From assembly GCA_949152475.1 (NCBI GenBank), contig OX424566.1:33172423-33236422 (forward strand): a stretch of 64,000 nt of DNA. The letters are read 5' to 3'. Both the position numbers and the translations under genes were made by a program. The stretch's first letter is position 1, and the number at the start of each line of letters is the position of its first letter. Of the stretch, positions 1 through 39,272 are shown one piece after another. This DNA is from Terebella lapidaria. Its lineage: Eukaryota > Annelida > Polychaeta > Terebellida > Terebellidae. The notes beneath the pieces are model-generated. The model was not told the origin of the DNA and did not search any database. It saw only the letters and a list, made by a program, of their open reading frames with translations.

Positions 1-1
1 A

Positions 2-472
2 GATTCGCCCTGGAGCGCACAGGTAGTGCTCGTGCGGAAGAAGAACGGACAAGTACGCTTCTGTGTCGACTATCGGCTCCTGAATGACGTCACCCGCAAG
101 GACTCGTATCCCTTGCCCAACATTCAGGACACTCATGACGCCCTGGCAGGCGCCAACTACTTCTCGGCCCTAGACCTGGCCTCCGGCTACTGGCAGGTCG
201 AAGTCGACCCAAGCGACAGACCGAAGACTGCCTTCGCCACAAGGAAGGGACTCTATCAGTTTAAGGTCATGCCATTCGGCCTTAGCAACGCCCCGGCAAC
301 CTTCGAACGGCTTATGGAGACCATACTCCGTGGTTACTTGTGGACCCGGTGTATGTGCTATCTCGACGACGTGAGCTTACGGCAGAACATTCGATCAGGC
401 ACTCGCAAACCTGGAAGCGGTCCTGGATCGGATCAGATCGGCAGGCCTGAAACTACAGCCCAAGAAGTGTGA
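2..472 (+). pseudogene. Gypsy-A reverse transcriptase, N-terminal part (frameshifted)
   Basis: The frame is open from base 2, so the coding region starts before the window. It reads RT fingers and palm: a WSAQVVLVRKKNG segment, FCVDYRLLN, the LDLASGYWQ box and PFGLSNAPATF, then the catalytic YLDD at 359-370. Immediately after YLDD, within about 371-380, the protein similarity moves to another frame, and this frame then runs nonsensically to a stop at 470-472. The polymerase was therefore functional in the ancestor, and this copy carries a one-step frameshift. Motif order identifies the Ty3/gypsy class. Confidence 0.9.
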
Positions 473-473
473 G

Positions 474-2729
474 TTGTTCCAACGGGAATTCTTGTACTTA
501 GGGTTCATAGTGAGCGGCCAAGGAATCCGAGTCGACCCCAACAAAGTTAAAGCCATCAGAGAATGGCCGACCCCGTGCGAGATCACCGACGTCAGGGCTT
601 TCCTCGGTTTCGCCAACTACCACAGGCGATTCATCAAGGACTACGCTGAGATCGCTGAACCTCTCGTAGCGCTTACCCGAGGTGAATGCCACTTCACTTG
701 GGGACCGGCCCAGCGACGAGCTTTCCAGCGACTCCGCGACGCCCTCATCAAGGCGCCCAAGCTCGCTCATCCGACCCAGAATCCGGAGGACTACTTCATC
801 CTCGACACGGATGCAAGCGGCTTTGCTGTGGGAGGAGCCCTCTCGCAAAGGGTTAACGGGAAGGAGATCCCCATCGGGTTCGCCAGCAAGACCCTTTCCC
901 GGACCCAGCGGAACTATTGCACCACCTATCGGGAACTACTGGCAGTAGTTGAGATGGTGCAACACTATCGGCACTACCTCTGGGGTAGGAAATTCCTCCT
1001 CCGGACCGACCATAGCTCGCTGAGGTGGTTGAAAAACTACAGCGACGCCGACGGCATGCTCGCCAGGTGGCTCGCCAAGCTACAGCAGTATGACTTTCGG
1101 ATAGAGCATCGACCCGGAAAACTACACGGTAACGCCGACGGCTTGTCACGGTGCCACAGTTGCAAACACCAAGACTGTCCCGGACGACTCGTCACACCTC
1201 CGACCGACCCAGAAACAAGTTCCGGAGAACTTCCAGTTCGTCGGATAACTGTTGTTCCGACCCAGACAAGGGCAGACCTCCTGGACAGTGATTCGATAAC
1301 ATCACCGGTCTTGCCCCAGCTAGTTTCGGCACGCCAAGTTGTTCGAGTCCGTGCTTTGGACGCCACACTTGATGGACAAAAGTGGCTTTCGGACTATTCG
1401 ACCCAGGACATTGTCGCGGCACAGCAAGCCGACCCCAGCGTCGGAAAAGTGCGGCAATGGATACTAGCCGGCACCAAGCCTGACTCACGAGAAGTCGCCC
1501 GCCAAGGAGAGGAGGTAAAGACACTTGTTTCTCGCTGGAACCTCCTGGCGTTACAAGGCGGAGTGCTGGTTCGACATATAAAACCCGACCCTGCTGGACG
1601 GCCCGTGGTGCAAACCGTGCTCCCCGTAGCACTCATGACACAAGTTCTGCACCAACTACACGACCTCAAGATTGTCGGACATCTCGGCATACAGCGTACC
1701 ATCGAGAGAGTCAGGCGCCGATTCTACTGGCCCGGCTTGGCGCTGGACGTCGCCCGCTGGTGTGCCCGCTGCCCGCAATGTGTGACCCGCAAGGGTAAAC
1801 CGGCCCCAAAAAGATCGCCCCTGACACAGCTACCGACAGGAGCGCCGTTCGACAGAATAGCGATGGACATCCTCGACACCCACAAGGTCACGGGAAGAGG
1901 CTATCGGTATGTACTAGTCGTGTCGGACTACTTTACGAAGTACACTGACGCTTTTCCGCTACGGCGACATACGGCCAAAAATGTTGCCGACACCCTGGTG
2001 AATCGGTGGATAGTCTACCACGGTGTCCCCAAAGCGGTCCATAGCGATCAAGGTACTGAGTTTGAGTCGTCCCTGTTCCGGCATGTTGTGCGTCTACTGG
2101 GCGCTAAGAAGATTCGTACGACCCCATACCGACCCCAGAGCGATGGCCAAGTTGAGCGATTCAACAGGACATTGCTCAACATGCTGAGTGCGTTCGTCAG
2201 CGATCGTGCAAACGATTGGGACTTGCACCTGCCATATGTGTTAATGGCCTATCGAACCTCAGTACACTCGTCCACGGGATGCACCCCGCATCTGATGGTG
2301 TATGGACATGAGTGTAACTTGCCAGTCGACCTCATGTTTCCGACCTACGACCCTGAGCCTCTACCTCCGTGTGGTCCGGAGTATGTGGAGTATTTGCGGC
2401 AAGCCATCAGGACGGCCCACGGTTTCGCCCAAGACCATCTCGAGAAAGCGGCAATTCGGCAAAAGATGGGTTATGACGCCCACGCGAAACCACGACCCCA
2501 GTTTCAACCAGGCGAACTGGTCCGGTATTATTATCTGCCACTCACGCAGAATAATAAGTTCGCTCGGCCCTGGACTGGTCCCTGGAGGATCATCGACCGT
2601 GTAACTGAGGTGGATTACCGAATCGCCCTGGTTTCCAACCCTCGGAACACTCGTGTTGTTCATCTGGATGTGCTCAAGCCATACGAAGGTGACAACCAAG
2701 CGGCCCACATCTACTCCGACCCTGTATGA
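474..2729 (+). CDS. Gypsy-A pol: RT C-terminus, RNase H, integrase
   Basis: 751 codons counted from the first ATG of this frame. The true frame begins upstream at about 375, where RT similarity resumes. RT thumb and connection come first (YLGFIVSG; AFLGFANYHRRFI). RNase H follows, with the LDTDASG box (D111, D113), a TYRELLAVVE helix and RTDHSSLRWL. The integrase zinc domain is H396-x6-H403-x29-C433-x2-C436. The integrase core has D465, D525 and E561, which gives DD35E spacing. A GPY/F-like module with WTGPWRII lies near residues 700-720. The protein copies the element RNA and inserts the cDNA into chromosomes. The TGA at 2727-2729 is in frame with a basic tail downstream. CGRCCC hexamers occur here in more than one codon phase. 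Confidence 0.93.
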   Translation: MFQREFLYLGFIVSGQGIRVDPNKVKAIREWPTPCEITDVRAFLGFANYHRRFIKDYAEIAEPLVALTRGECHFTWGPAQRRAFQRLRDALIKAPKLAHPTQNPEDYFILDTDASGFAVGGALSQRVNGKEIPIGFASKTLSRTQRNYCTTYRELLAVVEMVQHYRHYLWGRKFLLRTDHSSLRWLKNYSDADGMLARWLAKLQQYDFRIEHRPGKLHGNADGLSRCHSCKHQDCPGRLVTPPTDPETSSGELPVRRITVVPTQTRADLLDSDSITSPVLPQLVSARQVVRVRALDATLDGQKWLSDYSTQDIVAAQQADPSVGKVRQWILAGTKPDSREVARQGEEVKTLVSRWNLLALQGGVLVRHIKPDPAGRPVVQTVLPVALMTQVLHQLHDLKIVGHLGIQRTIERVRRRFYWPGLALDVARWCARCPQCVTRKGKPAPKRSPLTQLPTGAPFDRIAMDILDTHKVTGRGYRYVLVVSDYFTKYTDAFPLRRHTAKNVADTLVNRWIVYHGVPKAVHSDQGTEFESSLFRHVVRLLGAKKIRTTPYRPQSDGQVERFNRTLLNMLSAFVSDRANDWDLHLPYVLMAYRTSVHSSTGCTPHLMVYGHECNLPVDLMFPTYDPEPLPPCGPEYVEYLRQAIRTAHGFAQDHLEKAAIRQKMGYDAHAKPRPQFQPGELVRYYYLPLTQNNKFARPWTGPWRIIDRVTEVDYRIALVSNPRNTRVVHLDVLKPYEGDNQAAHIYSDPV

Positions 2730-3098
2730 CCCACAACGTCGTCAAGTCACTCCGACCCAGAACAGTCACCCGACCCCATGGGACTTCTCAAGGAGTTCTA
2801 TTACCCTTGGGAGGTAACAGTCCAAGATCGACATACCGATTCAGACCAAACAGCTGAGTCTGATTCGCCAACGACCCAGGATCGTCAATCGCGATCTCCG
2901 ACCTCATCCGGCTCAAGTCGACATCGGCAACGGAAAAGATCACGTAGATCAAGTTCCGACACTCCAAAACCGGCACGCAAGACGCGCAGGCAAAAGCCTG
3001 TGGTATCTTCCGACCCTGAGACAAGCGAGGCTACGCCCCCGCCTGCACGACCAAATCGACCCAGACGCAACGCACGCAGACCGGCCCGATACAGATAA
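2730..3098 (+). pseudogene. Gypsy-A pol C-terminal basic tail after an in-frame TGA
   Basis: The same frame as pol continues without another stop from 2730 to TAA at 3096-3098. It encodes a Ser/Pro/Arg-rich disordered tail ending in RRNARRPARYR. Gypsy pol proteins commonly end in such a basic tail, so the TGA at 2727-2729 looks like a mutation, or less likely a readthrough stop, and not the original end. CGRCCC hexamers continue at the same density across the stop. Confidence 0.6.
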
Positions 3099-4543
3099 CC
3101 CCGGCCTTGTTATCTGATTGATATCATTGATGATGAATTATGCATGTCTAATGGACTATGATATCATGTCATTCACAATAATAATATATTATATTACAAT
3201 AACAATATATGCATTTAACATGTACAAGATGTCAGTGAGGCAAATTCGATATATACACACTAGATATGATATTATAATTATGATGCTGGTGAAAAATTGG
3301 TTGCATTATGATATATGTTTCGACCCCGTATAACATGTACCATTGATCAAGGCGTATGTTACGCAATGACTAAGATTATCATGTAAAGCTTCAATCCATG
3401 TGCCAGCCGAAGAGGATAAATACCAGTCACACCGTGAGTAAGGCCACTCAGTTGTCGAAGAGGTGATAGTGTGATTCGTTCCGGAGTATGCGTCGACAGA
3501 GCCTCTACTCACTCCATGTAATATTCGGAGGAACGGCCCAGTGGTACGGGAACCAGTCACTACATAGCTATCATGCCAAGATGCGGCCTGTCACCAAATT
3601 CATCACCCAAATATTCAAAGCGCCGCGGTGTGACCGACCCAGTTCATTGCAAATTCGACCCCCTACAATATAGCGGCCCCGTCGTCTTGCGAACTGGCTG
3701 AAAATGAATGGAACGATGTCCACCCCTGTGAGTGATTGATATTCATATCTCAGCCTTTAATAACTGTGTGTCGTCTGTGAAACAGCAATTCGACCCCGTA
3801 GTTTATTGTGCGCTAACTTGTGGGAAAAGGAATGATAAGCTGTTTAGTTCACAAGGTACGCACGAGCGCAAATAAACATTTTAGCTGTTTACAGCACCTA
3901 CATGAAGTCTCCACTGCTAAAGACAATAGTGAGTCGTCGGGCAAAAAGAGCCCAGTAACTCGAACAGTCGACTAGTATAAATAGACAATGATTCGGAACG
4001 AGTTATCCAGGGGACGGCAGATGGACATACGGAAATCTGGACAGTGTGAGAACACCCCTACTGTCGTAATGGACTGACCCAAGAGGTCAGAGAAGGATCG
4101 CTCTGCGTTTCCTTGACGACGGCCCCGCCTTGCTGTGTGTACGCTTGGAACAATGATACATAGCGTAAAGACGTTTTCTATACAGATAGAGAGCGCCCCC
4201 CGGCCCAGTTCTAAGAATCGAGATGCTGTCAGCATCTTTGTGTACGGCATTGAAGATTAGCGGCAATCAGGTCACTTGTGCCTGAGACTTTGAAGGAGAA
4301 AGACGGTCTTGAAGTTTCGGATACCAGAATACAGACTAGTGATACAGAAACTGTGCTAATCAAATAATAATTATCGGCCTATAAACTGTGACATTGTATA
4401 AATCCTGGTCACAAGACTTTGGAGTTAATTCGGCTTTGAGTATCGGCATTTGAACTAGGCTGGTTTTGAAGAAATCCGGACTTTGTTACAACCAGCCTAG
4501 TCAGTACTTGGGAAGTACTTCGGCTTGATTTCGGCCCGTCAGC
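3099..4543 (+). other. Spacer between pol and ORF3 of Gypsy-A
   Basis: No convincing ORF. The first 250 bases are AT-rich with many ATAT runs, and the rest is mixed. CGRCCC motifs continue here, for example near 3322, 3534, 3657, 3674, 3791, 4120, 4200 and 4533, so the motif does not depend on coding. The spacer ends at a CAG immediately before the C-ATGG start of ORF3, which could be a splice acceptor for a subgenomic mRNA. No donor is visible in the window. Confidence 0.6.
4454..4501 (+). other. Stem-loop upstream of ORF3
   Basis: Perfect 12-bp inverted repeat: ACTAGGCTGGTT at 4454-4465 and AACCAGCCTAGT at 4490-4501, with a 24-nt loop. It ends 42 bases before the ORF3 ATG. It could be a structured RNA element of the leader, or chance. 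Confidence 0.45.
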
Positions 4544-7342
4544 ATGGCTGACAAACCCGGAGACGACCGGGAAAATAACAACCCAGGTGATAATCGGCCC
4601 CGCACAGACAAGTTGGACGGCGATAACATCACCGTCCAAGTAATCGACACCGGGGATGAATCGGATCATCCTATAGTGGTCCCCGACAACGAAGCTTCGT
4701 CCGGCCCCGACTCGCAGCCTGAGCAGCGCGATCCAGTCACGCTCAGTGACACGGCAAGTGGATCGGAGAAGGGAGCGCGACCCAAAACGGCCCGGAACAA
4801 GCTGGCGCAACGAGGAGAGCGCCATACACCGAGCCCGACTCCGGACGACATTTTTAATATCGACCCCGAACGCTTCCGCCGACTCGAGGAGGGCGGAAGT
4901 ATCGTCCAGCGTGCGATTGAGGCACGACAAGCGGCCCAAGAGGCTCAACGAGTCGCCACAGCGAGCCGCCAACCCGACCCAGCAAATCAGGTGATCGCCC
5001 CGATCGCTCCGGCCCCGACTTCACCCGCTTCCAGTTCAGCGGTAGCACGACCTGCGGCCTCCCGTTCTCCAAACAAGAGAACTTATACTTCTTTTAAGAA
5101 GAAACATGGAGCGGGAGCCCGATCGACCTCTAGCAGTTCGTCGCGCTCTAGTGGCGGATCTGCTGTTCCGGCCCCGACCTCGACTTTCCGTCGGCAAGTG
5201 GCGGAATTGATGGAATTGGTGCCACCTCCCGTGACGCCTTACGGAACTCGGCCCATAGACTGGAACAAGGTTCCACTCAGCAAACGGAATCGGAGCGCTG
5301 GATACGGCCATATCCACAACTTCGATGAACAGTCGACCCTGTCGGAGGGAAACCTCCTCACGTTGGCTCCGCTACAGCGTGGAGACGGTCGCTACGAGTG
5401 CCCTTTCTGCATCGGCGAAGAGGAAGGAGCAGGAGAGCGACAGTGGTCCTCCGTGCCACGACGCGGACCTTTCCGGACGGCCCAGAGTCTCGACGCGCAC
5501 GTACTAGCGTACCACTTTCCGTTCTTACGCTACTTCGTGTGCCCGGCCCGCGACGGCTTCCGGACATTGGCCCAGGAGGAGATGTTCCGGCACCTGTCCC
5601 AAGCGACCCCGCAACACGTGACGTCGTTTCCGTTCTACCAGGAGGGACGACTATCGGCATCCGGCCCCATGCTCGTCAGGTTCGCGCTACGCTGCAGAGT
5701 CGACATGCAGCCGAACCCGAATTATCGACCCCCAAGAGTTCCGGCTAACATCCCGATCTTCAGGAGGGATGTTAACACAGTCCTGACATTCGGCATTTGG
5801 CACATGGCGCCAGAGCTCTTTGAGCAATATCCGCCCAACTCGGCCCCGGAAGTGCAACAGGTACTCCGTCGACTAGAGTACAATCGTGCTTCGACTCCGG
5901 CAGACGAGATTCGGCTTACCCGCAGGGTCAGTGACATTGAGACCATGAACACGCGGGTTCGAATTCGACGACCCAGCACGATTTTCTTCGTCCGGCCCAT
6001 CAATTATCAGACAACATCGGTGAGCACGGCGGAGGAGGTCCCGACAACGACCACCGGTGTTTCGGCCTCGGCAGTTGTCACGACGGCTTCGTTCGCGACA
6101 GTGGCATCGCCAGCGACAACCCGACCGGTCACCACAGTGACATCTTCGACCCCGTCTAGAGCTCGACCTTCGGATATTATACCCAGGCGGATGGTTGTGG
6201 AGCGACCCACGGCCTCTAACGTCACGGACTACCGAGTCCGTGAGGGATTGGTCCCTCCACCTGAGGAGTATCCGCCACTCCCGAGTCGACCCCTGAATAC
6301 CACACCGGTATCGTCATCAACCGGCAAGGAGACTCCTGAACCAAAGAGTCCAGCCGAAGATCGGCCGCCTCCACTCAGGGAGATTGCACCCGGATCTCCT
6401 GTACGTGCGTCCCCGACACAGTTCTCGACCCCGGAATCCTCACCAGAGCCTTCACGACGGATGGTGGAACCCGTCCCGCTCCCGCCGTACCTCACGGAGG
6501 AAGTGGAACCTCTGTGCTCCGTCCCGACACGCGGCACTGATAGTGATCGGCCCCGACTCCAAGTGGACGACCCGGAGCAGCTTGAGTCGCTCCACAGGGA
6601 CCTCGACGAGCGTCTTCCGTTTCATGGGTCCGGCGAGTTTGCGGCCGACTTTCAATTTCTGCGGCAACACGGCAGACGTCTGGCGACTCGATCGCTTCCC
6701 GGCCTGCAGGCGCTACCCGGCCAGAACCCCGACCTCACGGACTTCCTACGGGATGAGGACGCCCAGCGGCTCCCGAACTACCTCGGGTTCCATGAAGACT
6801 TTTGGTCGGCCCGCCTTGAACAGGCCGCCCATAATGCCGACCCCTTGCTTCTCCCGTCAGAACCGGAAGAGCATCTACCGACCCTGGCTCTCGCTCGCGC
6901 TGACGACTTGGCGCACCAGTACTTACGGCTGATACGTCGGGAGTACTTGACGGCCCTGGACCACCACATCAGACAGGCAGAGTATAACGGCCTGTCTGTC
7001 GGCTTTGGGATGGGGGCTCTGCATGAGCGCCACCAGCCCACGTTCCCGGACACCTTGTCCGAGGAGAACCTTTGGCTCCGAGTTCGCGTGACTCAGTTGG
7101 AGGATCGGGTTGCTAACCTCCAACAGGAAAACGCTCGGCTCCAAGCAGCATCGACCCCAACTACTCCGGAAGCAACAGCTCCGCCGACCCCGACCACACC
7201 GACCATTCCGGGAGAACTCTTGGCCACAATAGTGTCCATCCTGCCGAGGTTACCCCCGGATGAGCAGTTGCAACTCATGCGACAAGCATCGCCAGCGGCC
7301 CCGCCTCCTCCCGCCAGCAGGCGTGAACGGGAGGAGAAATAA
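4544..7342 (+). CDS. Gypsy-A third ORF: zinc-finger and coiled-coil protein in env position
   Basis: An uninterrupted 932-codon ORF. The start is favoured by A at -3 and G at +4. The N-terminal 200 residues are acidic, then Ser/Ala/Pro-rich, with a basic patch near residues 178-190 (PNKRTYTSFKKKHG). A possible long-loop C2H2 finger follows (C286-x2-C289-x29-H319-x4-H324), then a folded-looking stretch to about residue 500. A Thr/Val/Ala-rich linker leads to a helical region near 680-830. A predicted leucine-zipper coiled coil runs about 838-870 (LWLRVRVTQLEDRVANLQQ), followed by a Pro-rich end. I see no signal peptide and no membrane segment, so this is not a classical Env despite its place between integrase and the 3' LTR. 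An open frame of this length beside a lightly damaged pol suggests a conserved product. I do not recognise the family. Nucleic-acid binding is inferred from the finger and basic patch. Confidence 0.85.
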   Translation: MADKPGDDRENNNPGDNRPRTDKLDGDNITVQVIDTGDESDHPIVVPDNEASSGPDSQPEQRDPVTLSDTASGSEKGARPKTARNKLAQRGERHTPSPTPDDIFNIDPERFRRLEEGGSIVQRAIEARQAAQEAQRVATASRQPDPANQVIAPIAPAPTSPASSSAVARPAASRSPNKRTYTSFKKKHGAGARSTSSSSSRSSGGSAVPAPTSTFRRQVAELMELVPPPVTPYGTRPIDWNKVPLSKRNRSAGYGHIHNFDEQSTLSEGNLLTLAPLQRGDGRYECPFCIGEEEGAGERQWSSVPRRGPFRTAQSLDAHVLAYHFPFLRYFVCPARDGFRTLAQEEMFRHLSQATPQHVTSFPFYQEGRLSASGPMLVRFALRCRVDMQPNPNYRPPRVPANIPIFRRDVNTVLTFGIWHMAPELFEQYPPNSAPEVQQVLRRLEYNRASTPADEIRLTRRVSDIETMNTRVRIRRPSTIFFVRPINYQTTSVSTAEEVPTTTTGVSASAVVTTASFATVASPATTRPVTTVTSSTPSRARPSDIIPRRMVVERPTASNVTDYRVREGLVPPPEEYPPLPSRPLNTTPVSSSTGKETPEPKSPAEDRPPPLREIAPGSPVRASPTQFSTPESSPEPSRRMVEPVPLPPYLTEEVEPLCSVPTRGTDSDRPRLQVDDPEQLESLHRDLDERLPFHGSGEFAADFQFLRQHGRRLATRSLPGLQALPGQNPDLTDFLRDEDAQRLPNYLGFHEDFWSARLEQAAHNADPLLLPSEPEEHLPTLALARADDLAHQYLRLIRREYLTALDHHIRQAEYNGLSVGFGMGALHERHQPTFPDTLSEENLWLRVRVTQLEDRVANLQQENARLQAASTPTTPEATAPPTPTTPTIPGELLATIVSILPRLPPDEQLQLMRQASPAAPPPPASRREREEK

Positions 7343-7843
7343 TGTCGACCCTGAACTGTTCGGCCCCTTTGATGCGGCCCAGTGGTGACCGACCATCCTG
7401 GTCACAGGTTTATTTGTGTAAATAGTTGTATATATATTCTATCCTAGTCATGGCATTTCGTTTTTATACATGTAATTTAGTTAAGTTTAATCACCATTTT
7501 TATTCCAGAAATGAACTTTAAAGAGTGATTTTTTTCCATTCTACTAGAGAATGTCGAGGAGTTTTGTCTTTATACATTCCATTCCATTCTTCATCAGTCA
7601 TTGTTGTGCATGTATTTGTATATGTATCATCGTAGAGACTGCTGACGGACTGACTGCTGACGTTTATTTTGACAGTTAGGAATTTTTATTGTATGTAGTG
7701 TTTTCGCATTTCGCGCGGCGTGTGGGTGTGTGTGTTTTTGGGTTTGACCTTTAGGACTTCTTAGCTTTTTATTGTTTAGTTTTGGCGACGGTAGGGTCCG
7801 GGGAGGGTAATCCCGAGGGCGTAGGATTAATGAAGGGGTGTTA
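7343..7843 (+). other. Spacer between ORF3 and 3' LTR
   Basis: No gene. Three CGRCCC motifs lie in the first 40 bases (near 7346, 7361 and 7375), then a T-rich stretch with none until the LTR. Confidence 0.6.
7826..7843 (+). promoter_or_regulatory. Polypurine tract region of Gypsy-A
   Basis: A purine-rich stretch containing GAAGGGG lies just before the TGTAG start of the 3' LTR, as expected for the plus-strand primer of an LTR element. A second purine-rich stretch (GGGAGGAGAAA, 7330-7339) overlaps the end of ORF3. It is a weaker candidate because LTR similarity starts at 7844. Confidence 0.55.
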
Positions 7844-8596
7844 TGTAGTAATTTTAGTGACTGTTACTCCCGTCCCTCCCGCGCACTACACATTTCCACA
7901 ACAAACATTCATTCTACATGACTTACATACAGGACAGGTACATACTATACGATCACAAGCATAAACTCCATGTAGTCATGGTTACACACACAGGTCAAAC
8001 CACGCACCTGCGGCCCCGCTAGCTCAGTACACTCGGCCCCGTTTACTCGACCTTGACCTTCACATGCACTGACTTCTAAACATAGAACTTGACACACATA
8101 CTCCACACATCACGTGCACAGATACAGGCATTACAAGTATTGACACGAGCCGGGGAAACCCACTTTCCCGGTGACATCAGCGCATTGCACCACACATTCA
8201 ACCTATCACAACACCGCTTACACTTGGCGGGAAATTACACAGCCACATGGTCCCTCGGCCCCAGTCATCTGCGCAGTTGAGAAGTAGATGTCCAAGTGAA
8301 CGGTCGCATTGTATATTGTAACCAGAAGAACGGCCGTAATCGCATAAAAGGAATATAAAAGCTGATATAACGTGGATGTATAAACTGTCATATATATATA
8401 AAGGACTATAATATTTAGGATATTCGACTGGGAATCACCGACGTAGGTGTGAGCGGCCCCGTTTGTGGTGTGAGTGTTATCATCGACATTATCGCCACAA
8501 TAAACAGTTTGAATTGAACTGCCGGCTTGTTGGTCTGTAGCACAACCTCACAGACATTCGGCCTGATACGGGCCAGTGAACCGTATTCTTCACACA
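7844..8596 (+). repeat. 3' LTR of Gypsy-A
   Basis: Starts TGTAGTAATTTTAGTGAC and ends near TTCTTCACACA. It aligns by eye with the minus-strand LTR at 39273-39953: near-identical TGTAG start, a shared CCCGTCCCTCYCGCGCAC block, shared CATTCT..CTACATGAC, an AATAAAC polyadenylation-type signal at about 8500 followed by similar sequence, and a similar end. TATA-like runs lie near 8392-8400. It carries CGGCCC at about 8012, 8034, 8253 and 8453. The end is uncertain by 2 bases because CACACA offers two CA choices. Confidence 0.8.
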
Positions 8597-8911
8597 TAGC
8601 TGCAATCTGATATGCTCAAATTTTTCACGATTTTTTCGCAAGCTCTGCACATTCAAATGACACACTGATATATCACGTAATTTACAGTCGTTCATAGTCG
8701 GCCCAGGGTTGCTCTCAATATCACCACACATGAGCAATACAATATTCATATATGAAGGGATACCATGAGACATTTTTGATATACATTTGTATTTGTTTTC
8801 ACACAAACAACTTGTTCTGTCACGGTGAAGTAAATCACAGCAAACAGCCATCATATTTGGCACACTTGTAAATTCGATATATACCACAGATAGTAAATAA
8901 CTTTGCAACAA
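8597..8911 (-). pseudogene. 5' end of a non-LTR retrotransposon with a 2A-type motif, interrupted by Gypsy-A
   Basis: Minus-strand frame from 8911. A hydrophobic segment (MNIVLLMCGD) leads into D-I-E-S-N-P-G-P at 8722-8699, which matches the ribosome-skipping 2A consensus DxExNPGP. It is followed by DISVCHLNVQSLRKN and then KFEHIRLQL, the opening of an AP-endonuclease domain as in CR1/L2-type elements. Similarity stops at about 8597, where the Gypsy-A LTR begins; codons below that are LTR sequence. 2A-like peptides at the N-terminus of such ORFs are known from other non-LTR retrotransposons. Only the first 100 or so codons are preserved here. Confidence 0.8.
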
Positions 8912-9013
8912 GATCCAACAATAATAAGACGTAGCACAAAAACCAGTAAGATTAGAGAACAGTCCATCGATGGTCCAAACGTAAACGTGCAGGGCCTCAG
9001 AGTTTACAGCTAA

Positions 9014-9532
9014 TCATGTTGGCGCATCGATCGTTGCGCTCTGGATCGGACGGCTCTTCTTCATGAAAAAAGATCTGATCGACTTGGAAGGTTTTCTGCT
9101 GTCTGGGGTTTCGTTTATATTCACAGGGCTGGTTGGTTTTCTTTTCACACTGATGGGCTTGGACGAATAGGTTTTCGTTTTCACCTGGGTTGGTTTGTCA
9201 TCATCGGTTGAGGGTTCTGAGCGTTTCTGGTGTTCACTTGTGTCGAGGAACTTGTCAGCTCTGTCTAGAAGCTCTGGGGAACTGCAGGAGGCTGGCTCTT
9301 CAGAAAGAACTCGTGAGATGAGCTCGTCAGCCAGTCTGGCGCCGACGGAGGGGTCTCTAGACAGCGGCTGTTGTGCGGAACTTTGTCCTGCGTCTGATCG
9401 ATCGCCCTCGCGGTAGCCCTGTCTGTCATCTCTGAGCTGCATCAAGAGCCGTCCCAGACGATTTTCGCCCGGCCAATCCTCAGGACCCCTTGTAATCGTG
9501 GCGCCTGGTGGGAGACCCGACGCCCAAAACAT
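9014..9532 (-). CDS. Leader/gag-like ORF of a second gypsy family (Gypsy-B)
   Basis: 172 codons starting at the inner edge of the minus-strand LTR. The early codons overlap the presumed primer-binding region, so translation may start at an internal Met (for example the MQLRDD Met). The product is charged and disordered: Asp/Arg-rich, then Ser/Pro/Glu-rich, then Lys-rich (KTKTYSSKPISVKRKP). There is no zinc knuckle or recognisable capsid fold. The frame ends at 9014 near the non-LTR element, so the rest of the gypsy element is missing. Gag is inferred only from position after an LTR. Confidence 0.4.
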   Translation of the reverse strand: MFWASGLPPGATITRGPEDWPGENRLGRLLMQLRDDRQGYREGDRSDAGQSSAQQPLSRDPSVGARLADELISRVLSEEPASCSSPELLDRADKFLDTSEHQKRSEPSTDDDKPTQVKTKTYSSKPISVKRKPTSPVNINETPDSRKPSKSIRSFFMKKSRPIQSATIDAPT

Positions 9533-10070
9533 GTGAGAAGTCGCCTCGGTTAGTGTTGTGCTTGAAGTATCACAAACCAGTCCGAATTCAATTCATCCAA
9601 GTTTATTAGGATGAATATTCCGATGACTCGATCACGGCCACCTACGCAACTTCCCTATATAGTCCGAATAATAGTCCGACAAGTTCAACAGTATATCACA
9701 GATATCTTTTTTAAAAAAATTTCAATATTTAAGAGATACGTATTCATTCTCTAAATCTCTCAAACTCGACTCCGAAAAGCGCGGGGATTTTTCCATGCGG
9801 TGTCTGGTTTTTCCCGCGTCGTGGAACAGGAGTTCATGTGATTTGCTGAATGTGATGTAATGTCTGTGTGGGCGTGGTTAGGTGTCTGGAAATGTCGTGA
9901 TTGGTGGTGTGTTCTGTCTGACGTCATTTGTGGAGTTGTTTACATGACTTGGACGGTGTGTGTCGGTTCTCGTGAGTATGAAGTCATGTGATGAATCTGT
10001 GCCATGTATGTCGAGTGGGATAAAGTGTAATGGAGGGTTTCGTGCCGATAACTGTCATAAATATTCTACA
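9532..10070 (-). repeat. LTR of Gypsy-B (5' LTR, minus strand)
   Basis: On the minus strand it begins TGTAGAATATTTATGAC at 10070 and ends CTTCTCACA at 9532, about 539 bp. The start matches the Gypsy-A LTR at 39953 (TGTAGAATATTTA) and the end resembles TTCGTCACA, but most of the interior differs. An AATAAAC signal lies near 9602. A candidate primer site beginning TGGGCGTCGGG follows within 6 bases. Unlike Gypsy-A, there is no CGRCCC enrichment on either strand. Confidence 0.65.
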
Positions 10071-10719
10071 TCAAGTTACATGCATCGAAATACTGATATT
10101 CCTGTATACTAATTTATACCTAAATTGTCACCATTTTGGATGTGACTTGAGCGTGATTGCACTCAGCGATCAATGCAATTATCGAGACAGCCCCGCCTTT
10201 CTTGACCCCTACTGAACAGGGTTATAAAAAAAACGTATATTGACAGTATTGCGAAATTTGACTTTGATCACTCCAGATTCACAGTGCACAATCAGCATTA
10301 TGATTCCAGGGGCATTCCATTACTCTGGGGGTAGGGTTTTGTGATTTTAGGAGGAATACATTGTCAACAAAGGTCGGGTGTCCTTGAATATTGAGCAAGA
10401 ATATGTCAATTCTCCAAGAATGAAAACAATCACATGTATCATCCGATCAGTTGGCTCAATTGTTGCACATTTCACACAAAAGGAGATTTTATGCAGGGTG
10501 TATCCTATATTCGCGTACATCGATTCCATCACTTACTGGTAGACTGTCAAGGCAAAATCGAGTACCCAGGAATTAAACATTTCAAAGCATTTGGTCATGT
10601 TTCGGAGGGATTTAGGATGACAAAGAATTACCATTTATTTTAGTAATGAAATTACGGCTAGGAAATGCAATCACTTCACGAAAATTGGATTTTTCTGGGA
10701 AAATATGATTCTGCAAGTT
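10071..10719. other. Unannotated sequence left of the minisatellite
   Basis: No gene, repeat or element boundary recognised. The short ORFs on both strands show no family motif. Confidence 0.5.
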
Positions 10720-13700
10720 CACCTTCCACTTACCATGAACACTTCCCAATGTCATGTATGCTTCACACCTGGCTTGTACACAACACGCAGCAATGTGTAT
10801 TTCCCACTTGTCTTCTAGACCTCTTACTTGTCGTGTACACTTCCCACTCTAACCATGTGCTCTCCCCGCTTGTCATTTACACTCATCACCCGGCTTGTAC
10901 TCCTCCCACTTACCATGTGCTCTCCCCATTTGCCATGTACACTCGCCACCTGGGTTGTACTCCTCCCACTTACCATGTGCTCTCCCCACTTGCCATGTAC
11001 ACTCGCCACCTGGCTTGTACTCCTCCCACTTACCATGTGCTCTCCCCACTTGTCATGTACACTCGCCACCTGGCATGTACTCCTTCCACTTACCATGTGT
11101 TCTGCCCACTTGCCATGTACACTCGTCACCTGGCTTGTCCTCCTCCCACTTACCACGTGCTCTCTCCACTTGCCATCTACACTCGCCACCTGGCTTGTAC
11201 TCCTCTCATTTACCATGGGCTCTCTCCACTTGCCATGTACACTCGCCACCTGGTTTGTACACTCGCCACCTGGCTTGTACTCCTCCCACTTACCGTGTGC
11301 TCTCCCCACTTGCCATGTACACTCGCCAACCGGCTTGTACTCCTCCCACTTACCATGTGCTCTCCCCACTTGCCATGTACACTCGCCACCCGGCTTGTAC
11401 TCCTCCCACTTACCATGTGCGCTCCCACTTGCCATGTACACTCGCAATCTGGCCTGTACTCCTCCCACTAACCATGTCCTCTCCCAAGTTGCCATCTACA
11501 CTCGCCACCCGGCTTGTACTCCTCCCACTTACCAGGTGCTCTCCCAACTTGCCATGTACACTCGCCACCTGGCCTGTACTCCTCCCACTAACCATGTTCT
11601 CTCCCCACTTGTCAGGTACACTCGCCACCTGGCTTGCACTCCTCCCACTTACCATGTGCTCTCCCAACTTGCCATATACACTCGCCACCTGGCCTTTACT
11701 CCTCCCACTAACCATGTGCTCTCACCACTTGTCAGGTACACTCGCCACCTGGCTTGTACTCCTCCCACTTACCATGTGTTCTCCCCACTTGCCCTGTACA
11801 CTCGCCACCTGGCTTGTCCTCCTCCCACTTACCATGTGGTCTCCCCGCTTGCCATGTACACCCGCCACCTGGCTTGTACTCCTCCCACTTACCATGTGCT
11901 CTCCCCACTTGCCATGTATATTCGCCACCTGGCTTGTACTCCTCCCACTTACCATGTGTTCTCCCCACTTGCCATGTACACTCACCAACAAGCTTGTACT
12001 CCTCCCACTTACCATGTGCTCTCCCCACTTGCCATGTTCATTCGCCACCTGGCTTGTACTCCTTCCACTTACCATGTGCTCTCCCCACTTGCCATGTACA
12101 CTCGCCACCTGGCTTGTACTCCTCCCACTTACCATGTGTTCTCCCCACCTGCCATGTACACTCGCCATCTGGCTTGTACTCCTCCCACTTACCATGTGCT
12201 CTCCCCACTTGCCATGTACACTCGCCACCAGGCTTGTACTCCTCCCACTTACCATGTGCTCTCCCCACTTGCCATGTACACTCGCAACCTGGCTTGTACT
12301 CCTCCCACTTACCATGTCCTCTCGCCACTTGCCATGTACACTCGCCACCTGGCTTGTACTCCTCCCACTTACCACGTGTTCTCCCCCACTTGCCATGTAC
12401 ACTCGCCACCTGGCTTGTACTCCTCCCACTTACCATGTGCTCTCCCCACTTGCCATGTACACTCGCCACCTGGCATGTACTCCTTCCACTTACTATGTGC
12501 TCTCCCCACTTGCCATGTACACTCGCCACCTGGCTTGTACTCCTCCCACATAACATGTGCTCTCCCCACTTGCCATGTACACTCGTCACCTGGCTTGTCC
12601 TCCTCCCACTTACCACGTGCTGTCTCCACTTGCCATCTACACTCGCCACCTGGCTTGTACTCCTCCCACTTACCATGTGCTCTCTCCACTTGCCATCTAC
12701 ACTCGCCACCTGGTTTGTACTCCTCTCACTTACCATGTGCTCTCCCCCACTTGCCATGTACACTCGCCACCTGGCTTGTACTCCTCCCACTTACCATGTG
12801 CTCTCCCCACTTGCCATGTACACTCGCCACCTGGCATGTACTCCTTCCACTTACTATGTGCTCTCCCCACTTGCCATGTACACTCGTCACCTGGTTGTCC
12901 TCCTCCCACTTACCACGTGCTCTCTCCACTTGCCACCTGGTTTGTACTCCTCTCACTTACCATGTGCTCTCCCCACTTGCCATGTACACTCGCCACCTGG
13001 CTTGTACTCCTTCCCACTTACTATGTGTTTTCTCCACTTGCCATGTACACTCGCCACCTGGCTTGTGCTCCTCCCACTTACCATGTGCTCTTCCCACTTG
13101 CCATGTACACCCGCCACGTGGCTTGTACTCCTCCCACTTACCATGTGCTCTCCCCACTTGCCATGTACACCCGCCACGTGGCTTGTACTCCTCCCACTTA
13201 CCATGTGCTCTCCCCACTTGCCATGTACACCCGCCACGTGGCTTGTACACCTCCCACTTACCATGTGCTCTCCCCACTTGCCATGTACACTCGCCACCTG
13301 ACTTGTACTCCTCCCACTTACCAGGTGCTCTCCCCACTTGCCATGTACACTCGCCACCTGGCTTGTACTCCTCCCACTTACCATGTGTTCTCCCCACTTG
13401 CCATTTACAATCGCCTCCTGGCTTGTACTCCTCCCACTTACCACGTGTTCTCCCCCACTTGCCATGTACACTCGCCACCTGGCTTGTACTCCTCCCACTT
13501 ACCATGTGCTCTCCCCACTTGCCATGTACACTCGCCACCTGGCTTGTACTCCTCCCACTTACCATGTGCTCTCCCCACTTGTCATGTACACTCGCCACCT
13601 GGCATGTACTCCTTCCATTTACCATGTGCTCTCCCCACTTGCCATGTACACTCGCCACCTGGCTTGTACTCCTCCCACTTACCATGTGCTCTCCCCACTT

Positions 13701-16700
13701 GTCATGTACACTCGCCACCTGGCATGTACTCCTTCCACTTACCATGTGCTCTCCCCACTTGCCAGGTACACTCGCCACCTGGCTTGTACTCCTCCCACTT
13801 ACCATGTGCTCTCCCCACTTGCCATGTACACTCATCACCTGGCTTGTCCTCCTCCCACTTACCACGTGCTCTCTCCACTTGTCATCTACACTCGCCACCT
13901 GGCTTGTACTCCTACCACTTACCACGTGCTCTCCCCACTTGCCATGAACACTCGCCACCTGGCTTGTACTCCTCCCACTTACCATGTGCTCTCCCCACTT
14001 GTCATGTACACTCGCCACCTGGCATGTACTCCTTCCATTTACCACGTGCTCTCCCGAGTTGCCATGTACAATCGCCACCTGGCTTGTACTCCTCCCACTT
14101 ACCATGTGCTCTCCCCACTTGTCATGTACACTCGCCACCTGGCATGTACTCCTTCCACTTACTATGTGCTCTCCCCACTTGCCATGTACACTCGCCACCT
14201 GGCTTGTACTCCTCCCACTTACCATGTGCTCTCCCCACTTGCCATGTACACTCGTCACCTGGCTTGTCCTCGTCCCACTTACCACGTGCTCTCTCCACTT
14301 GTCATCTACACTCGCCACCTGGCTTGTACTCCTACCACTTACCACGTGCTCTCTCCACTTGCCATCTACACTCGCCACCTGGTTTGTACTCCTCTCACTT
14401 ACCATGTGCTCTCTCCACTTGCCATGTACACTCGCCACCTGGCTTGTACTCCTCCCACTTGCCATGTGTTCTCTCAACTTGATTTCTGCACCCGCCACCT
14501 GGTTTGTACTCCTCCCACTTACCACGTGCTCTCTCCACTTGCCATCTACACTCGCCACCTGGCTTGTACTCCTACCACTTACCACGTGCTCTCTCCACTT
14601 GCCATCTACACTCGCCACCTGGTTTGTACTCCTCTCACTTACCATGTGCTCTCCCCACTTGCCATGTACACTCGTCACCTGGCTTGTCCTCCTCCCACTT
14701 ACCACGTGATGTCTCCACTTGCCATCTACACTCGCCACTTGGCTTGTGCTCCTCCCACTTACCATGTGCTCTCCCCACTTGCCATGTACACTCGCCACTT
14801 GGCTTGTCCTCCTCCCACTTACCACGTACTCTCTCCACTTGCCATCTACACTCGCCACCTGGCTTGTCCTCCTCCAACTTACCACGTACTCTCTCCACTT
14901 GCCATCTACACTCGCCACCTGGCTTGTGCTCCTCCCACTTACCATGTGCTCTCCCCACTTGCCATGTACACTCGCCACCTGGCTTGTACTCCTCCCACTT
15001 GCCATGTGCTCTCCCCACTTGCCATGTACACTCGCCACCTGGCTTGTACTCCTCCCACTTACCAGGCGCTCTCTCCACTTGCCATGTACACTCGCCACCT
15101 GGCTTGTACTCCTCCCACGTGCCATATGCTCTCCCCACTTGCCATGTACACTCGCCACCTGGCTTGTACTCCTCCCACTTACCAGGTGCTCTCCCCACTT
15201 GCCATGTACACTCGCCACCTGGCTTGTACTCCTCCCACGTGCCATATGCTCTCCCCACTTGCCATGTACACTCGCCACCTGGCTTGTACTCCTCCCACTT
15301 ACCAGGTGCTCTCCCCACTTGCCATGTACACTCGCCACCTGGCTTGTACTCCTCCCACTTACCATGTGTTCTCCCCACTTGCCATTTACAATCGCCTCCT
15401 GGCTTGTACTCCTCCAACTTGCCATGTGTTCTCCCAACTTGCGTTCTGCACCTGCCACCTGGTTTGTACTCCTCCCACTTGCCATGTGTTCTCCCTGCAT
15501 GCCATGGACACTCGCCACCGGCTTGAACTCCTCCCACTCACCATGTGCTCTCCCCACTTGCCATGTACACCCGCCACGTGGCTTGTACTCCTCCAACTTA
15601 CCATGTGCTCTCCCCACTTGCCATGTTCACCCGCCACCTGGCTTGTACTCCTTCCACTTACCATGTGCTCTCTCCACTTGTCATCTACACTCGCCACCTG
15701 GCTTGTACTCCTCCCACTTACCATGTGCTCTCCCCACTTGCCATGTACACCTGCCACCTGGCTTGTACTCCTCCCACTTACCATGTGCTCTCCCCACTTG
15801 TCATGTGCACCCGCCACCTGGCTTGTACTCCTCCCACTTACCATGTGCTCTCCCCACTTGCCATGTACACTCGCCACCTGGCTTGTACTCCTCCCACTTA
15901 CCATGTGCTCTCCGCACTTGCCATGTACACTCGCCAACTGCCTTGTACTCCTCCCACTTACCATGTGCTCTCCCAACTTGCCATATACACTCGCCACCTG
16001 GCTTTTACTCCTCCCACTTACCATGTGCTCTCCCCACTTGCCATGTACACTCGTCACCTGGCTTGTCCTCCTCCCACTTACCACGTGCTCTCTCCACTTG
16101 CCATCTACACTCGCCACATGGCTTGTACTCCTCCCACATAACATGTGCTCTCCCCACTTGCCATGTACACTCGTCACCTGGCTTGTCCTCCTCCCACTTA
16201 CCACGTGTTCTACCCCACTTGCCATGTACACTCGCCACCTGGCTTGTACTCCTCCCACTTACCATGTGCTCTCCCCACTTGCCATGTACACTCGCCACCT
16301 GGCATGTACTCCTCCCACTTACCAGGTGCTCTCCCCACTTGCCATGTACACTCGCCACCTGGCTTGTACTCCTCCCACTTACCTTGTGTTCTCCCCACTT
16401 GCCATTTGCAATCGCCTCCTGGCTTGTACTCCTCCCACTTGCCATGTGTTCTCCCAACTTGCGTTCTGCACCCGCCACCTGGTTTGTACTACTCCCACTT
16501 ACCATGTGTTCTCCCTGCATGCCATGGACACTCGCCACCGGCTTGAACTCCTCCCACTTACCATGTGCTCTCCCGACTTGCCATGTACACCCGCCACGTG
16601 GCTTATACCCCTCCCACTTACCATGTGCTCTCCCCACTTGCCATGTTCACCCGCCACCTGGCTTGTACTCCTTCCACTTACCATGTGCTCTCTCCACTTG

Positions 16701-35786: not shown

Positions 35787-37470
35787 CATTGAAACCTCAA
35801 TATTAAGGTCAGTGAGCAGACTGACCTCAAATGACCTGATTAGTGGGGTGACCTTATTAGTGAATACAACCTCCAAAGAGATATTTATAGGAACACACTC
35901 ATGTAAAGATAATCATTAATTTTTATTAAAAGGAAATTGTTGCATTACATTGTTTGTCAACGAAAAAGAAATTACTTCAAAATTGGGCAACAATTGTTTG
36001 CACGAACATTCAGAAGATTTACACTTCAAAACAAAACAGAATATTGTCAGATTGGCACTGTTAATGTCAATTGATTTTCGAGAAAAAGTCCATCTTTGAT
36101 TGCTTTCCCTGGATTCCACCTTGATAATTTGTCCCGCGAGCTGGTCCTCTGCATTGGCGAAAGTTTGCCACAAGTCGAGTCCCTTTGAAACACAAAACAG
36201 TTTCAGTCTGGCAGCAATGGCAGTGGCGTCTTCCAATGTTATGTCATCTCTTTCGGCTGGAACACTGACATCCTCTTCTCCCTCAGAGTCGGGATGCACA
36301 TCTGAAGTCGTGCTGTCTGCCACAAAAAGCCTCACTGTCGATGTTGACATACTCCAGTGGGTCAGTGATGATGTCAGTGAGGTCAAATGAGCGAACGCAA
36401 GCCAAAAGTTCTGAGAGGGAAATGTGGTCTTCAGGGTCATCGTCAGTGGGAGGTAAGGGTGCCGAGGGCGAGGGGAAGCCAGCCTTCACAAAACACTTGG
36501 TGATGGTTGTGGTTTTGATGGCCTTCACGGAATCTGCTATCCAATGGACTGCTTCGAGCACATTTATGGCCTTTACCAGATGGGATGATGTGAGATTTTT
36601 GTCTATCTCAGTCAAGAGCTTGCGGACCACACATTGCCAGTATTGCAGTTTGAAGGCCTGAATTATCCTGTGATCCACTGGCTGCAGTACAGATGTGGTG
36701 TTTGCTGGGAAAAACGCTAGCTTGACATTTGACATTTATCATATCGCGAGGGTGGCTTGGTGCGTTATCCAATAATGGCAAAACCTGACGTTTTTTGGCG
36801 ACGCATCTTCTTGTTAAAATCCCCAAGCCAGGTCCTGAAGATGTCAGATGTCATCCACGCCTTGCCGTTGTGTCGCCATGTGACTGGTAGCTGGGTGTCG
36901 GGGTTTAGGTTGCGGAAGCAATGCGGCTTTGCTGCTTTCCCTATCACGAGGGGGTGAAACATTCGCCAGTCATGCTGCACGCGAGACACAGTGTGAGTCT
37001 TTCCTTTGATTGTTTGCCGCCTGCACATTCCTTTAACTGCCAGCGTATGGCCGGGGAGTGTTCGAAAAACAACACTCGTCCATGCTCCAAATGTCTTTGG
37101 GATCGTATCCACCGCAGATGCCAGTGACTTTTTCTTTCCAATCAGAAACGACCTCGCTGCGCTCTCCACAAATCACCGCGCTTGAAATGTTGTGGCGAGC
37201 CTTGAATCGATCGAGCATTCCATTCGAATCTGCAATTTGTTCAGGGGTTGGTGTTTCCCACTGATTTATTTGTCCCATGGCACAAGAGAGTTCACCGTCA
37301 ACGTGTTTGTCACCAACATATCCGAGCGTTGGTATGTTGGCATGCCGTGTACTTCGATAACGGTCCCTGTGGGTCCTCTGTCGGCGGCTCTCAGCCTTGA
37401 GGACGGCCGTTAGTGCTACACTATGTGTAGCAAAAGTGAACACACAGTTTATCAGCAATGGGGTCAGGTT
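35787..37470 (-). pseudogene. Tigger/pogo-type DNA transposon relic (transposase, minus strand)
   Basis: Minus-strand pieces in several frames: DNA-binding and helical region with FKARHNISSAVICGE (ORF 37458-37033); first catalytic Asp in WSMDECCFSN; PLVIGKAAKPHCF and WMTSDIFRTWL (ORF 37169-36765); second Asp in PLLDNAPSHP (36826-36608 frame); then VKLAFFPANTTSVLQPVDH and FKLQYWQCVVRKLL (ORF 36735-36283). The order and motifs are those of Tigger/jerky-type DDE transposases in the Tc1/mariner group. The left end, CATTGAAACCTCAATATTAA at 35787, looks like a terminal repeat. I could not find its right partner, so that end is truncated. Confidence 0.85.
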
Positions 37471-37498
37471 GGCCGTTTATGAACTGTGAAATCACAGT

Positions 37499-38078
37499 TC
37501 ACTGTCGTGATTCTGGCGTGACGTCATCAAAGACTTGCTCAGCCAGAGCTTGAAGCCGTTTGAGATATTGTTCTGCGTCCCCCTTCCGTTCTTGTTTGAG
37601 GAACGGGAAGTCGTCACGTTTGGAATGTTGGCATGACGTGGGCTCCCAGCCCTCTAGGAGTCGGTGACGGAACTTCTCCCAGGGTGTCTCTACCGGGATG
37701 TTCAGGGCAATCGCTTCCGCACGGCCGCGCAGCGTGATTCGGAAGGTTCCAGTTTTGTTAAGGTCGGAATTCGTGAAAGCAGCAGTGAATTGCTCGTAGC
37801 TCTAGATGTACTGGGTGAGATTAGCGTCTTTGAACGTCGCATGCGATTGAGCCGTTATAGCCACAGCTAACGTTCGGGGCTCAGACGTGAGTCTCTTGGG
37901 CGTGGGCATATTGGTGCTCACTGAAGTCGGCATAGTCGTGACGGAGGCAGCCGGTGTCGTGGCAGCCAGAGCAACTGGGGTCGTAGTAGTCAGAGCTGTC
38001 TGGGTCGTGTTAGCGGGGGCAACAGGCGTGGTCGTAGCGAAGGAGGCGGGCGAGGCGGCGGGTGGTGTCGGAGCTTAG
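37499..38078 (-). pseudogene. Gag remnant of Gypsy-A copy 2
   Basis: Minus-strand frame from 38078 to TGA at 37499-37501, broken once by TAG at 37802-37804. A Thr/Ala/Pro-rich linker leads to a retrotransposon gag core: FRITLRGRAEAIALNIP, TPWEKFRHRLLEGW and DAEQYLKRLQALAEQVF. It assigns a gag to the family whose 3' half lies at 1-8596. The segment ends at a small palindrome (GAACTGTGA, AA, TCACAGTTC; 37480-37499), where the rest of the element is lost. Confidence 0.75.
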
Positions 38079-39104
38079 CCGGGGTTGTGTAGCACATGCG
38101 CGACAGGGGCCGTTTGGCTGTATTGTGGCGACACCCATGGTACTCCGATTGAGGATGGGATACCAGCCGGTGGAGGATATCGGTATACCAAACCGTGCGG
38201 GGTCACAATAAGATACACAACTCCATTTCGAGCACCGTGATATCAGATATCTGCTATTCCATTCGGAACGCCACCATATCCGATGAGAGGGTTATTGTAT
38301 CCGATACCCGCTACTCCATTTGGAACGCCACTATATCCGATTGGTGGGTTCACGCAGCCGACTTGGGGGTTATGGTATCCAACTGACTGACAGATCGGCC
38401 GTCCGATCATGGGTGGCAGTCGGTGCGCAGTTGGGCGCATGTGCCGGAGGTTGACATGTCGAGGTCATGAGGTCGGCGACTTGACGTGGATGGTGGTTGC
38501 CCCGGTCACGCTTGTCGCAGGGGCGCTGTAGTCGTGGTGGTAGTCATCATCGGGATGCTCCCTGTGGTTGATCTCGCTTGGCTGGGTCGGACATACTCCA
38601 TCATGGTCAGCTCGGTCAGTATACCTGAGTACACCATTGGTACTGGGTCGTGTTGTGCTGGCGTCATGTGCAATACGACCCAGTACCAATGGTGTGACAG
38701 CTATGTCACAATGTCAGTATCACAAACCCACTGTCTTATCCAAGAGTTACTCGGTGGATGCGTAACCATTGACGTATCCAGTGTTACAGGCCAGACACTC
38801 ACCGAGGAATGTTCTGGGTCAGCACGATCACACACACTCGTTCGTTGGCGAGAACGAGTATAGTCTTTGTCAGCAAAGTCACTTGATAATTTCTGGGTCG
38901 TTCTGGCTGGCGTGGCCGAGTACGACTGCACGTGCGCATTGATAATGTCACTCACAGTGTGCAGGGGGCTAGCAGATCTTCGTCCAGGAATGCTCCGATC
39001 TGGTCGGCGGGTGGCGAAGACGATATCAGGGACGACTGGTCACCAATAGATTCGAATAGACCGGTCGGTTGTTGCTCCTGCAACGGCGGGACTGTATCGC
39101 TCAT
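38079..39104 (-). pseudogene. Gag N-terminal region of Gypsy-A copy 2, frameshifted
   Basis: Begins with ATG at 39104, about 168 bases after the PBS, and reads MSDTVPPLQEQQPTGLFESI to a stop at 38952-38954. Similar composition continues in other frames, including Tyr/Gly/Pro repeats (GYSGVPNGV, GYGGVPNGI; 38243-38440) and a His/Asp-rich stretch. No single frame survives. GGGYCG on the plus strand (CGRCCC in element sense) recurs throughout. Confidence 0.5.
38631..38695. other. Perfect 21-bp inverted repeat inside gag remnant
   Basis: Left arm 38631-38651 (ACACCATTGGTACTGGGTCG then T) and right arm 38675-38695 are exact reverse complements with a 23-nt loop. Each arm carries a CGACCC-type hexamer, in opposite orientation. 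Confidence 0.8.
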
Positions 39105-39254
39105 GGCAACTGAGCAGGGGCCGGGAGGTCAGAAGGGCGGATTCAGATTAAACGTCACCTCGTCATCCGTCGGGTCGAACGGCTTGCCACGGGGTGTTCC
39201 CGGGGCCATCGCCATCACTGCCGGTGGGGTCGATTATCCAAGACTGGCTCAGAT

Positions 39255-39271
39255 CCTGGTCGATGGCGCCA
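39255..39271 (-). promoter_or_regulatory. Primer-binding site of Gypsy-A copy 2
   Basis: On the minus strand TGGCGCCATCGACCAGG begins one base after the LTR end (..TTCGTCACA). TGG start and position fit a tRNA primer site. I do not assign the tRNA. Confidence 0.65.
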
Positions 39272-39272
39272 A

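Follow-up and report, generated by a model that had tools for sequence, protein, structure and literature searches.

A selected one-strand array of the hexamer CGRCCC in a Ty3/gypsy-type retrotransposon of Terebella lapidaria

The window analysed here is a 64,000-nucleotide stretch of the genome of the polychaete Terebella lapidaria (contig OX424566.1, C13:33172423-33236422; assembly of 761.6 Mb in 438 contigs). It opens inside a long terminal repeat (LTR) retrotransposon of 14.6 kb, which starts about 6.0 kb before window position 1 and whose sense strand carries the hexamer CGRCCC throughout. An earlier reading of the window, made from its sequence only, had pointed to such an array. The array is genuine and stronger than that reading had stated. 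The parts of the element are as follows; positions are those of the window unless marked otherwise, and ORF stands for open reading frame.

C13:33166401-33172422 (L009 2979-9000), upstream of the window: 5' part of the LTR retrotransposon
1..8594, + strand: 3' part of the LTR retrotransposon, holding 76 of the 125 CGRCCC sites of the element and no GGGYCG
2..472, + strand: reverse transcriptase (RT), 3' part of the protease-RT (PR-RT) frame (Pfam RVT_1, E 5.1e-24)
375..2729, + strand: ORF of 784 codons for the end of RT, RNase H and integrase, 20 CGRCCC (Pfam RT_RNaseH, Integrase_H2C2, rve and Integrase_p58_C over cut-off)
2730..3098, + strand: small ORF with 6 CGRCCC, by eye rich in arginine near its end, without a Pfam match over cut-off
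3096..4528, + strand: spacer without a long sense-strand ORF, 8 CGRCCC
4529..7342, + strand: ORF3, orphan protein of 937 codons, 33 CGRCCC, candidate reader of the word
7844..8594, + strand: 3' LTR, TG...CA, about 751 bp, 4 CGRCCC, recognised by identity to the 5' LTR
8595..8598, + strand: target-site duplication CATA, found by eye also directly before the 5' LTR

The paired LTRs, the target-site duplication and the order of the pol domains identify a Ty3/gypsy-type LTR retrotransposon. Protease, RT, RNase H and integrase follow each other in Ty3/gypsy-type order (Pfam matches over cut-offs), and the element as a whole runs from gag-like ORFs through protease-RT, RNase H-integrase, the small arginine-rich ORF and the 1.4-kb spacer to ORF3. 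The sequence following the 5' LTR, where a tRNA primer binding site would be expected, begins TTGGCGCC. Since the two LTRs are 100% identical over 753 aligned bases, end in TG...CA and are flanked on both sides by CATA, the insertion is recent.

In window positions 1-8596, where about 75 plus-strand sites (roughly one per 115 bases) had been estimated by hand, 76 were counted (41 CGACCC and 35 CGGCCC). The complement GGGYCG, earlier reported as missing, is indeed absent there, and over the whole element (two pieces, 14,618 bases) the ratio is 125 to 0. Each of fourteen 1-kb bins holds 5-11 sites. Sites were found in all three codon phases, in ORF3, in the spacers and in the LTR, in agreement with the earlier description. 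The flanking preferences described with it also hold in the window part: C or T precedes the word in 53 of 76 cases and C or A follows in 58 of 76. The second base after the word is G in 47 of these 76 sites and in 79/125 over the whole element, compared with 89/272 after other CCC. Over the whole element, forms with one mismatch at the last position share the strand bias (CGRCCT 43:3, CGRCCA 27:4), and first-position variants are rare (2:0, 3:2 and 6:3). The spacing, with a mean of 115 and a standard deviation of 120, fits an exponential distribution with no departure from random (Kolmogorov-Smirnov p 0.47), and no direct repeats of at least 20 bases link the sites in window 1-10500. A tandem-repeat origin is ruled out by the random spacing and, for the window part, by the lack of such repeats. 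As the sites are neither linked by direct repeats nor regularly spaced, their orientation appears to have been chosen site by site.

Such an array could lack any function, if base composition, codon usage or biased mutation by the reverse transcriptase made CGRCCC common; the element is indeed C-rich, with 28.6% C in window 1-8596. Codon shuffles were carried out by permuting synonymous codons within each ORF, 2,000 times per ORF. This check, proposed with the first description, gave counts far below the observed ones in ORF3 (33 sites; shuffle mean 6.3, maximum 15) and in the RT-integrase ORF (20; mean 4.4, maximum 10). The shuffles also fell short in PR-RT (13; mean 4.8, maximum 11), gag1 (17; mean 5.5, maximum 12) and the small ORF (6; mean 0.9, maximum 4), so that they fail in all five larger or denser ORF pieces. 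Two short gag pieces, with 6 sites each against means of 2.6 and 2.0, had a maximum of 6 each, and thus some shuffles equal the observed count. In noncoding parts, a dinucleotide Markov model predicted 0.4 sites for the spacer, 0.3 for the LTR and 0.1 for the piece after ORF3, where 8, 4 and 3 were found. The use of reachable places, those that hold a given word or would gain it through a single synonymous change, was also determined. CGRCCC already occupies 20/22 of them in RT-integrase and 33/46 in ORF3, together 53/68, whereas permuted words fill 78/251 and 175/571, pooled 253/822; the best single permuted word reaches 78% in RT-integrase and 65% in ORF3. The reverse word fills 0/5 and 0/6 of its reachable places, together 0/11. 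About 5 copies of the complement were expected (4.4 from codon shuffles in ORFs and 0.6 from the Markov model in noncoding parts) and none was observed.

The distribution of the word outside the element was then compared. The window background, without the element and a related fragment, holds 3 CGRCCC and 8 GGGYCG in 51.7 kb. A comparison with other gypsy families, likewise suggested at the outset, was made on 20 pol fragments of the same genome, chosen out of 150 listed places and totalling 44 kb (30-46% protein identity to the element's pol). No one-strand array was seen in these 20 fragments, which hold 8 forward and 11 reverse sites. No hexamer with one degenerate position exceeded a z of 5.6 over codon shuffles in them; CGRCCC scored 8.4 in pol of the element and 11.8 in its ORF3. 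For the fragments examined, this rules out a feature common to gypsy elements or to the host. The same data bear on a host RNA code, in which a host RNA-binding protein would read CGRCCC for splicing suppression, nuclear export, stability or small-RNA escape, and only this family would exploit it. The restriction of the sites to the sense strand over the whole transcript is consistent with such a code, and a long RNA with ORF3 far downstream would gain from staying unspliced. None of the 20 fragments uses CGRCCC, however, and none has another word comparably enriched, which makes a host code unlikely. As the array is confined to the family among the fragments examined, a family-specific reader encoded by the element is suggested.

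Genome-wide, pairs of sites at most 30 bases apart in the same orientation number 25,889 against 15,774 in a backward control, and convergent pairs 3,787 against 3,032. Both differences are no more than suggestive, since tandem arrays contribute to them. The count of triple sites is no higher than in the backward control (6,026 against 5,998), a figure that a tandem array may inflate. A short tandem array with CGRCCC on one strand, its unit apparently about 18 bp, lies at G000 C1:3498700-3499260; it is unrelated at first sight.

The element is one of many copies. At least 49 ORF3 copies with 97-100% protein identity were listed (49 of 3,627 candidates scored), and 30 of them were compared over ORF3 and 1.5 kb on each side. 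Their ORF3 DNA is identical to that of the window copy down to 93.3%. Each of the 30 has 48-55 forward and 0-2 reverse sites, with reverse sites in only three copies; the strand bias is therefore retained in other copies, a point on which the first description had been open to refutation. Three ORF3 sites segregate between copy subgroups.

Substitutions among these copies were divided into shared ones, present in at least two of the 30, and singletons, presumed to be mostly post-insertion. In ORF3, shared substitutions fall on 1/180 motif-core columns, compared with 217/2,595 elsewhere (p 9e-6) and 49/634 in permuted words (p 6e-5). Singletons fall on 16/180 motif-core columns and on 190/2,595 elsewhere (p 0.46). 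At third positions with a synonymous transition, shared changes affect 1/62 motif positions against 185/845 others (p 1.2e-5), or against 62/272 other C positions (p 1.8e-5), and singletons 9/62 against 101/845 (p 0.55). The avoidance by shared substitutions extends to the 1,500 bases before ORF3 (0/50 against 130/1,439, p 0.019) and, with all 30 copies included, to the piece after ORF3 with the LTR (3/40 against 254/1,205, p 0.045). Pooled, shared substitutions number 4/270 in the motif and 584/5,236 elsewhere (p 3e-9), and singletons 17/270 and 414/5,236. Because ORF3 singletons strike CGRCCC as often as other sites, the word is not a general mutational cold spot. It is well supported that, during replication of the element and not after insertion, CGRCCC is under selection at the nucleic-acid level. 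The shuffles, the permuted words and the contrast between shared substitutions and singletons rule out codon usage, amino-acid choice and C-richness as the cause. An array without function is contradicted by the shuffle, permuted-word and singleton results and is highly improbable.

More distant members of the family keep the array. In 12 related sequences, whose gag is 19-27% diverged from that of the window copy, it remains on one strand: relative L041 has 35:2 forward to reverse sites in 7 kb and L042 54:0 in 8.5 kb, further pieces of these two copies give 20:0 (L063) and 8:0 (L064), and L065-L073 have 6-15 forward and 0 reverse sites. Codon shuffles in the decayed relatives, a weak comparison limited to short open frames, gave a z of 3.8 in L041 and 2 sites against 0.7 in L042. 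One related fragment lies in the window itself:

37231..39272, - strand: gag fragment of a related element, its two main blocks being 73-77% identical; the fragment's own sense strand carries the array (9 against 1)

Next to this fragment lies a remnant of a DDE_1 transposase gene (Pfam PF03184, about 36490-36965, - strand). In an alignment of 13 gag sequences, pairwise retention of CGRCCC sites is 1,076/1,517 (71%), compared with 6,936/14,542 (48%) for permuted words; 5/107 random degenerate hexamers matched this retention value. Some sites are shared by up to 12/13 sequences and 10 occur in one sequence only, and therefore sites have been kept and also gained or lost. The alternative posed earlier, fixed positions or newly gained ones, thus has both answers in the gag alignment. 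Selection on nucleic acid, as the sequence-only reading proposed, is upheld by these results together: codon shuffles fail, other gypsy fragments lack the array, relatives keep its bias and shared substitutions avoid the word. The gag of the window copy is distributed over several ORFs and contains a tandemly duplicated stretch of about 1.2 kb (L009 about 5056-7203). The 945 bases compared between its two units are 99.9% identical, and in the relatives both units map to one stretch.

Four distant loci (L085, L086, L087 and L088) have forward to reverse ratios of 9:6, 3:1, 3:3 and 2:3 over whole loci and are uninformative. All four come from bacterial assemblies, L085-L087 with 34-42% identity and L088 with 79% over 24 residues only. 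The gypsy-type pol genes of L085-L087 lie in contigs filed as Calditrichota, Oligoflexales and Robiginitomaculum, which are probably eukaryotic contamination. Eleven loci on viral contigs match the element at 28-44%, and metagenome proteins related to pol reach 51-60% identity at the top of the list (best 15 of 1,090).

To what kind of nucleic acid the selection applies was assessed from orientation and predicted accessibility, taken as the unpaired probability in local folding. Sites on the sense strand are predicted to be more unpaired than permuted words (median 0.045 against 0.020, p 1.4e-4). No difference in accessibility from GC-matched words is seen for the complement on the antisense strand (p 0.82). 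The strict orientation, the absent complement and the predicted accessibility favour recognition on the sense RNA, and a reading at the RNA level, by a reader of either the element or the host, is probable overall. Of the readers first offered (an RNA-packaging factor, a DNA-binding anti-silencing factor, a mark for or against host silencing), an RNA-level factor is thus preferred, the DNA-level factor is weaker, and none is singled out.

The DNA-level reading would have an element protein, ORF3, coat integrated copies through CGRCCC and prevent their silencing, in the manner of VANC proteins of Arabidopsis VANDAL elements. According to PMC5735166 and PMC10398659, most VANC words sit in noncoding tandem repeats and the protein binds them as duplex DNA, and the readers evolve together with the VANDAL word arrays. 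The dense, family-specific array of a short word in a single orientation is common to both systems and resembles the targets of VANC21 (PMC5735166), and ORF3 is an orphan protein with a conserved part and a finger-like stretch, described below. But duplex binding gives no obvious cause for a 125:0 orientation of separately arisen sites, nor for the missing complement. CGRCCC sites are single, mostly coding though present throughout coding and noncoding parts, and the evidence leans to RNA, whereas the VANC targets are noncoding tandem repeats (PMC5735166, PMC10398659). The carrier is an LTR retrotransposon, not a VANDAL DNA transposon, and no VANC homologue was recognised in ORF3, which has neither a Pfam match over cut-off nor a homologue among 7,994 scored candidates. 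Of the parallel with VANC drawn earlier, density, common orientation and family specificity stand and the tandem-repeat noncoding organisation does not. Recognition at the DNA level is, on balance, rather unlikely.

Recognition of the sense RNA would work as follows. The RNA may be selected to carry CGRCCC about once per 115 nucleotides along its entire length, in the preferred context of Y before and MG after; CGRCCT and CGRCCA are likely to be weaker versions of the word. The lack of the complement looks like avoidance of pairing inside the element's RNA. An RNA-binding protein encoded by the element would read the words jointly and so mark the RNA as self. That the array serves as a genome-length recognition signal for an element protein, either Gag in packaging or ORF3, has about an even chance. 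An orientation-locked self-identification code, spread over coding and noncoding sequence, occupying most of the synonymous places available in the ORFs tested and read on RNA by a protein of the element, which would thereby direct the element's machinery to the element's transcript, falls a little short of that. Because the array spans the whole genomic RNA including the LTR, Gag and packaging are favoured. Gag, reading through its nucleocapsid knuckle, is the likeliest single reader, though it can be proposed only tentatively. Its gag sequence encodes one CCHC-like knuckle, below the Pfam cut-off.

The orphan ORF3 protein is the second candidate and might protect or export the long RNA. Pfam gave nothing over cut-off for it (best E 0.07), and none of the candidates scored was a homologue at E 0.001. 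Twelve copies share 99-100% identity over ORF3 residues 240-505, for which AlphaFold gave no usable model (mean predicted local distance difference test score, pLDDT, 28). A finger-like CPFC...HVLAYH stretch, seen by eye, is recognisable in relative L063. The small arginine-rich ORF is a further candidate.

Dispersed packaging signals of single-stranded RNA viruses and hepatitis B virus offer another comparison. As described in PMC6281560, these are stem-loop motifs with a loose consensus, proposed to be read by the coat protein. Many copies of one motif on the sense RNA, running through coding sequence, are common to both; the present element differs in its strict hexamer, in some 125 copies, for which contact with the capsid is putative.

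Chi and KOPS are short words with strong strand bias across bacterial chromosomes, kept by a dedicated reader and read by DNA motors. The present array resembles them in the bias of a short word across a genome and differs in its carrier, a retrotransposon in place of a bacterial chromosome. To our knowledge no such skewed word has been described in a retrotransposon, and no retrotransposon with a one-strand hexamer array was recognised in the parts of the literature searched, which included few subscription papers.

Several observations weigh against RNA recognition by an element protein under selection during replication. The density of sites in noncoding parts is about half that in ORFs, a difference that a pure length-coverage model would not predict. 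In the piece before ORF3, singletons too show a tendency to spare the word (1/50 against 157/1,439, p 0.056), and in the LTR piece the avoidance by shared substitutions is not significant once 6 poorly aligned copies are removed (3/40 against 237/1,202, p 0.065). Shared changes in the R column of ORF3 amount to 1/36, and that one is to T; the A/G exchange that R should tolerate is unseen. The predicted difference in accessibility is small and is itself tied to the missing complement. The matches to the Gag knuckle are weak (E 0.1 and 0.054, below cut-off), and no known specificity for CGRCCC was found in the portion of the literature searched. The reader and its binding to CGRCCC we infer from sequence.

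Other features of the locus were recorded. By eye, the element appears nested in a long interspersed nuclear element (LINE) on the opposite strand (window 8489-9013, - strand; L009 1096-2988, - strand). The window-side LINE piece encodes CGDIESNPGP, which we take to resemble a 2A peptide. A C-rich satellite occupies window 10834-18785, with a 60-bp unit in about 132 copies and 89% matches; the plus strand of its middle part has 42% C. The observed/expected ratio of CpG is 1.05 and 1.16 in the two element pieces (window 1-8594 and L009 2979-9000), against 0.69 and 0.79 for the remaining window sequence; in the element it is still 1.04 after removal of the CGRCCC motif.

It is well supported that this recently active, many-copied gypsy family carries a real and strongly selected one-strand recognition array, with a putative reader and purpose. 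As far as we know, how LTR retrotransposons tell their own RNA from that of the host is largely unsolved outside a few models. CGRCCC provides an exact, testable target: each element offers about 125 copies of it, and the candidate readers are few. Here the sequence itself reveals selection on a short word, through the contrast between mutations passed through replication and those acquired after insertion. The coding sequence of a mobile element can thus be strongly shaped by nucleic-acid recognition.
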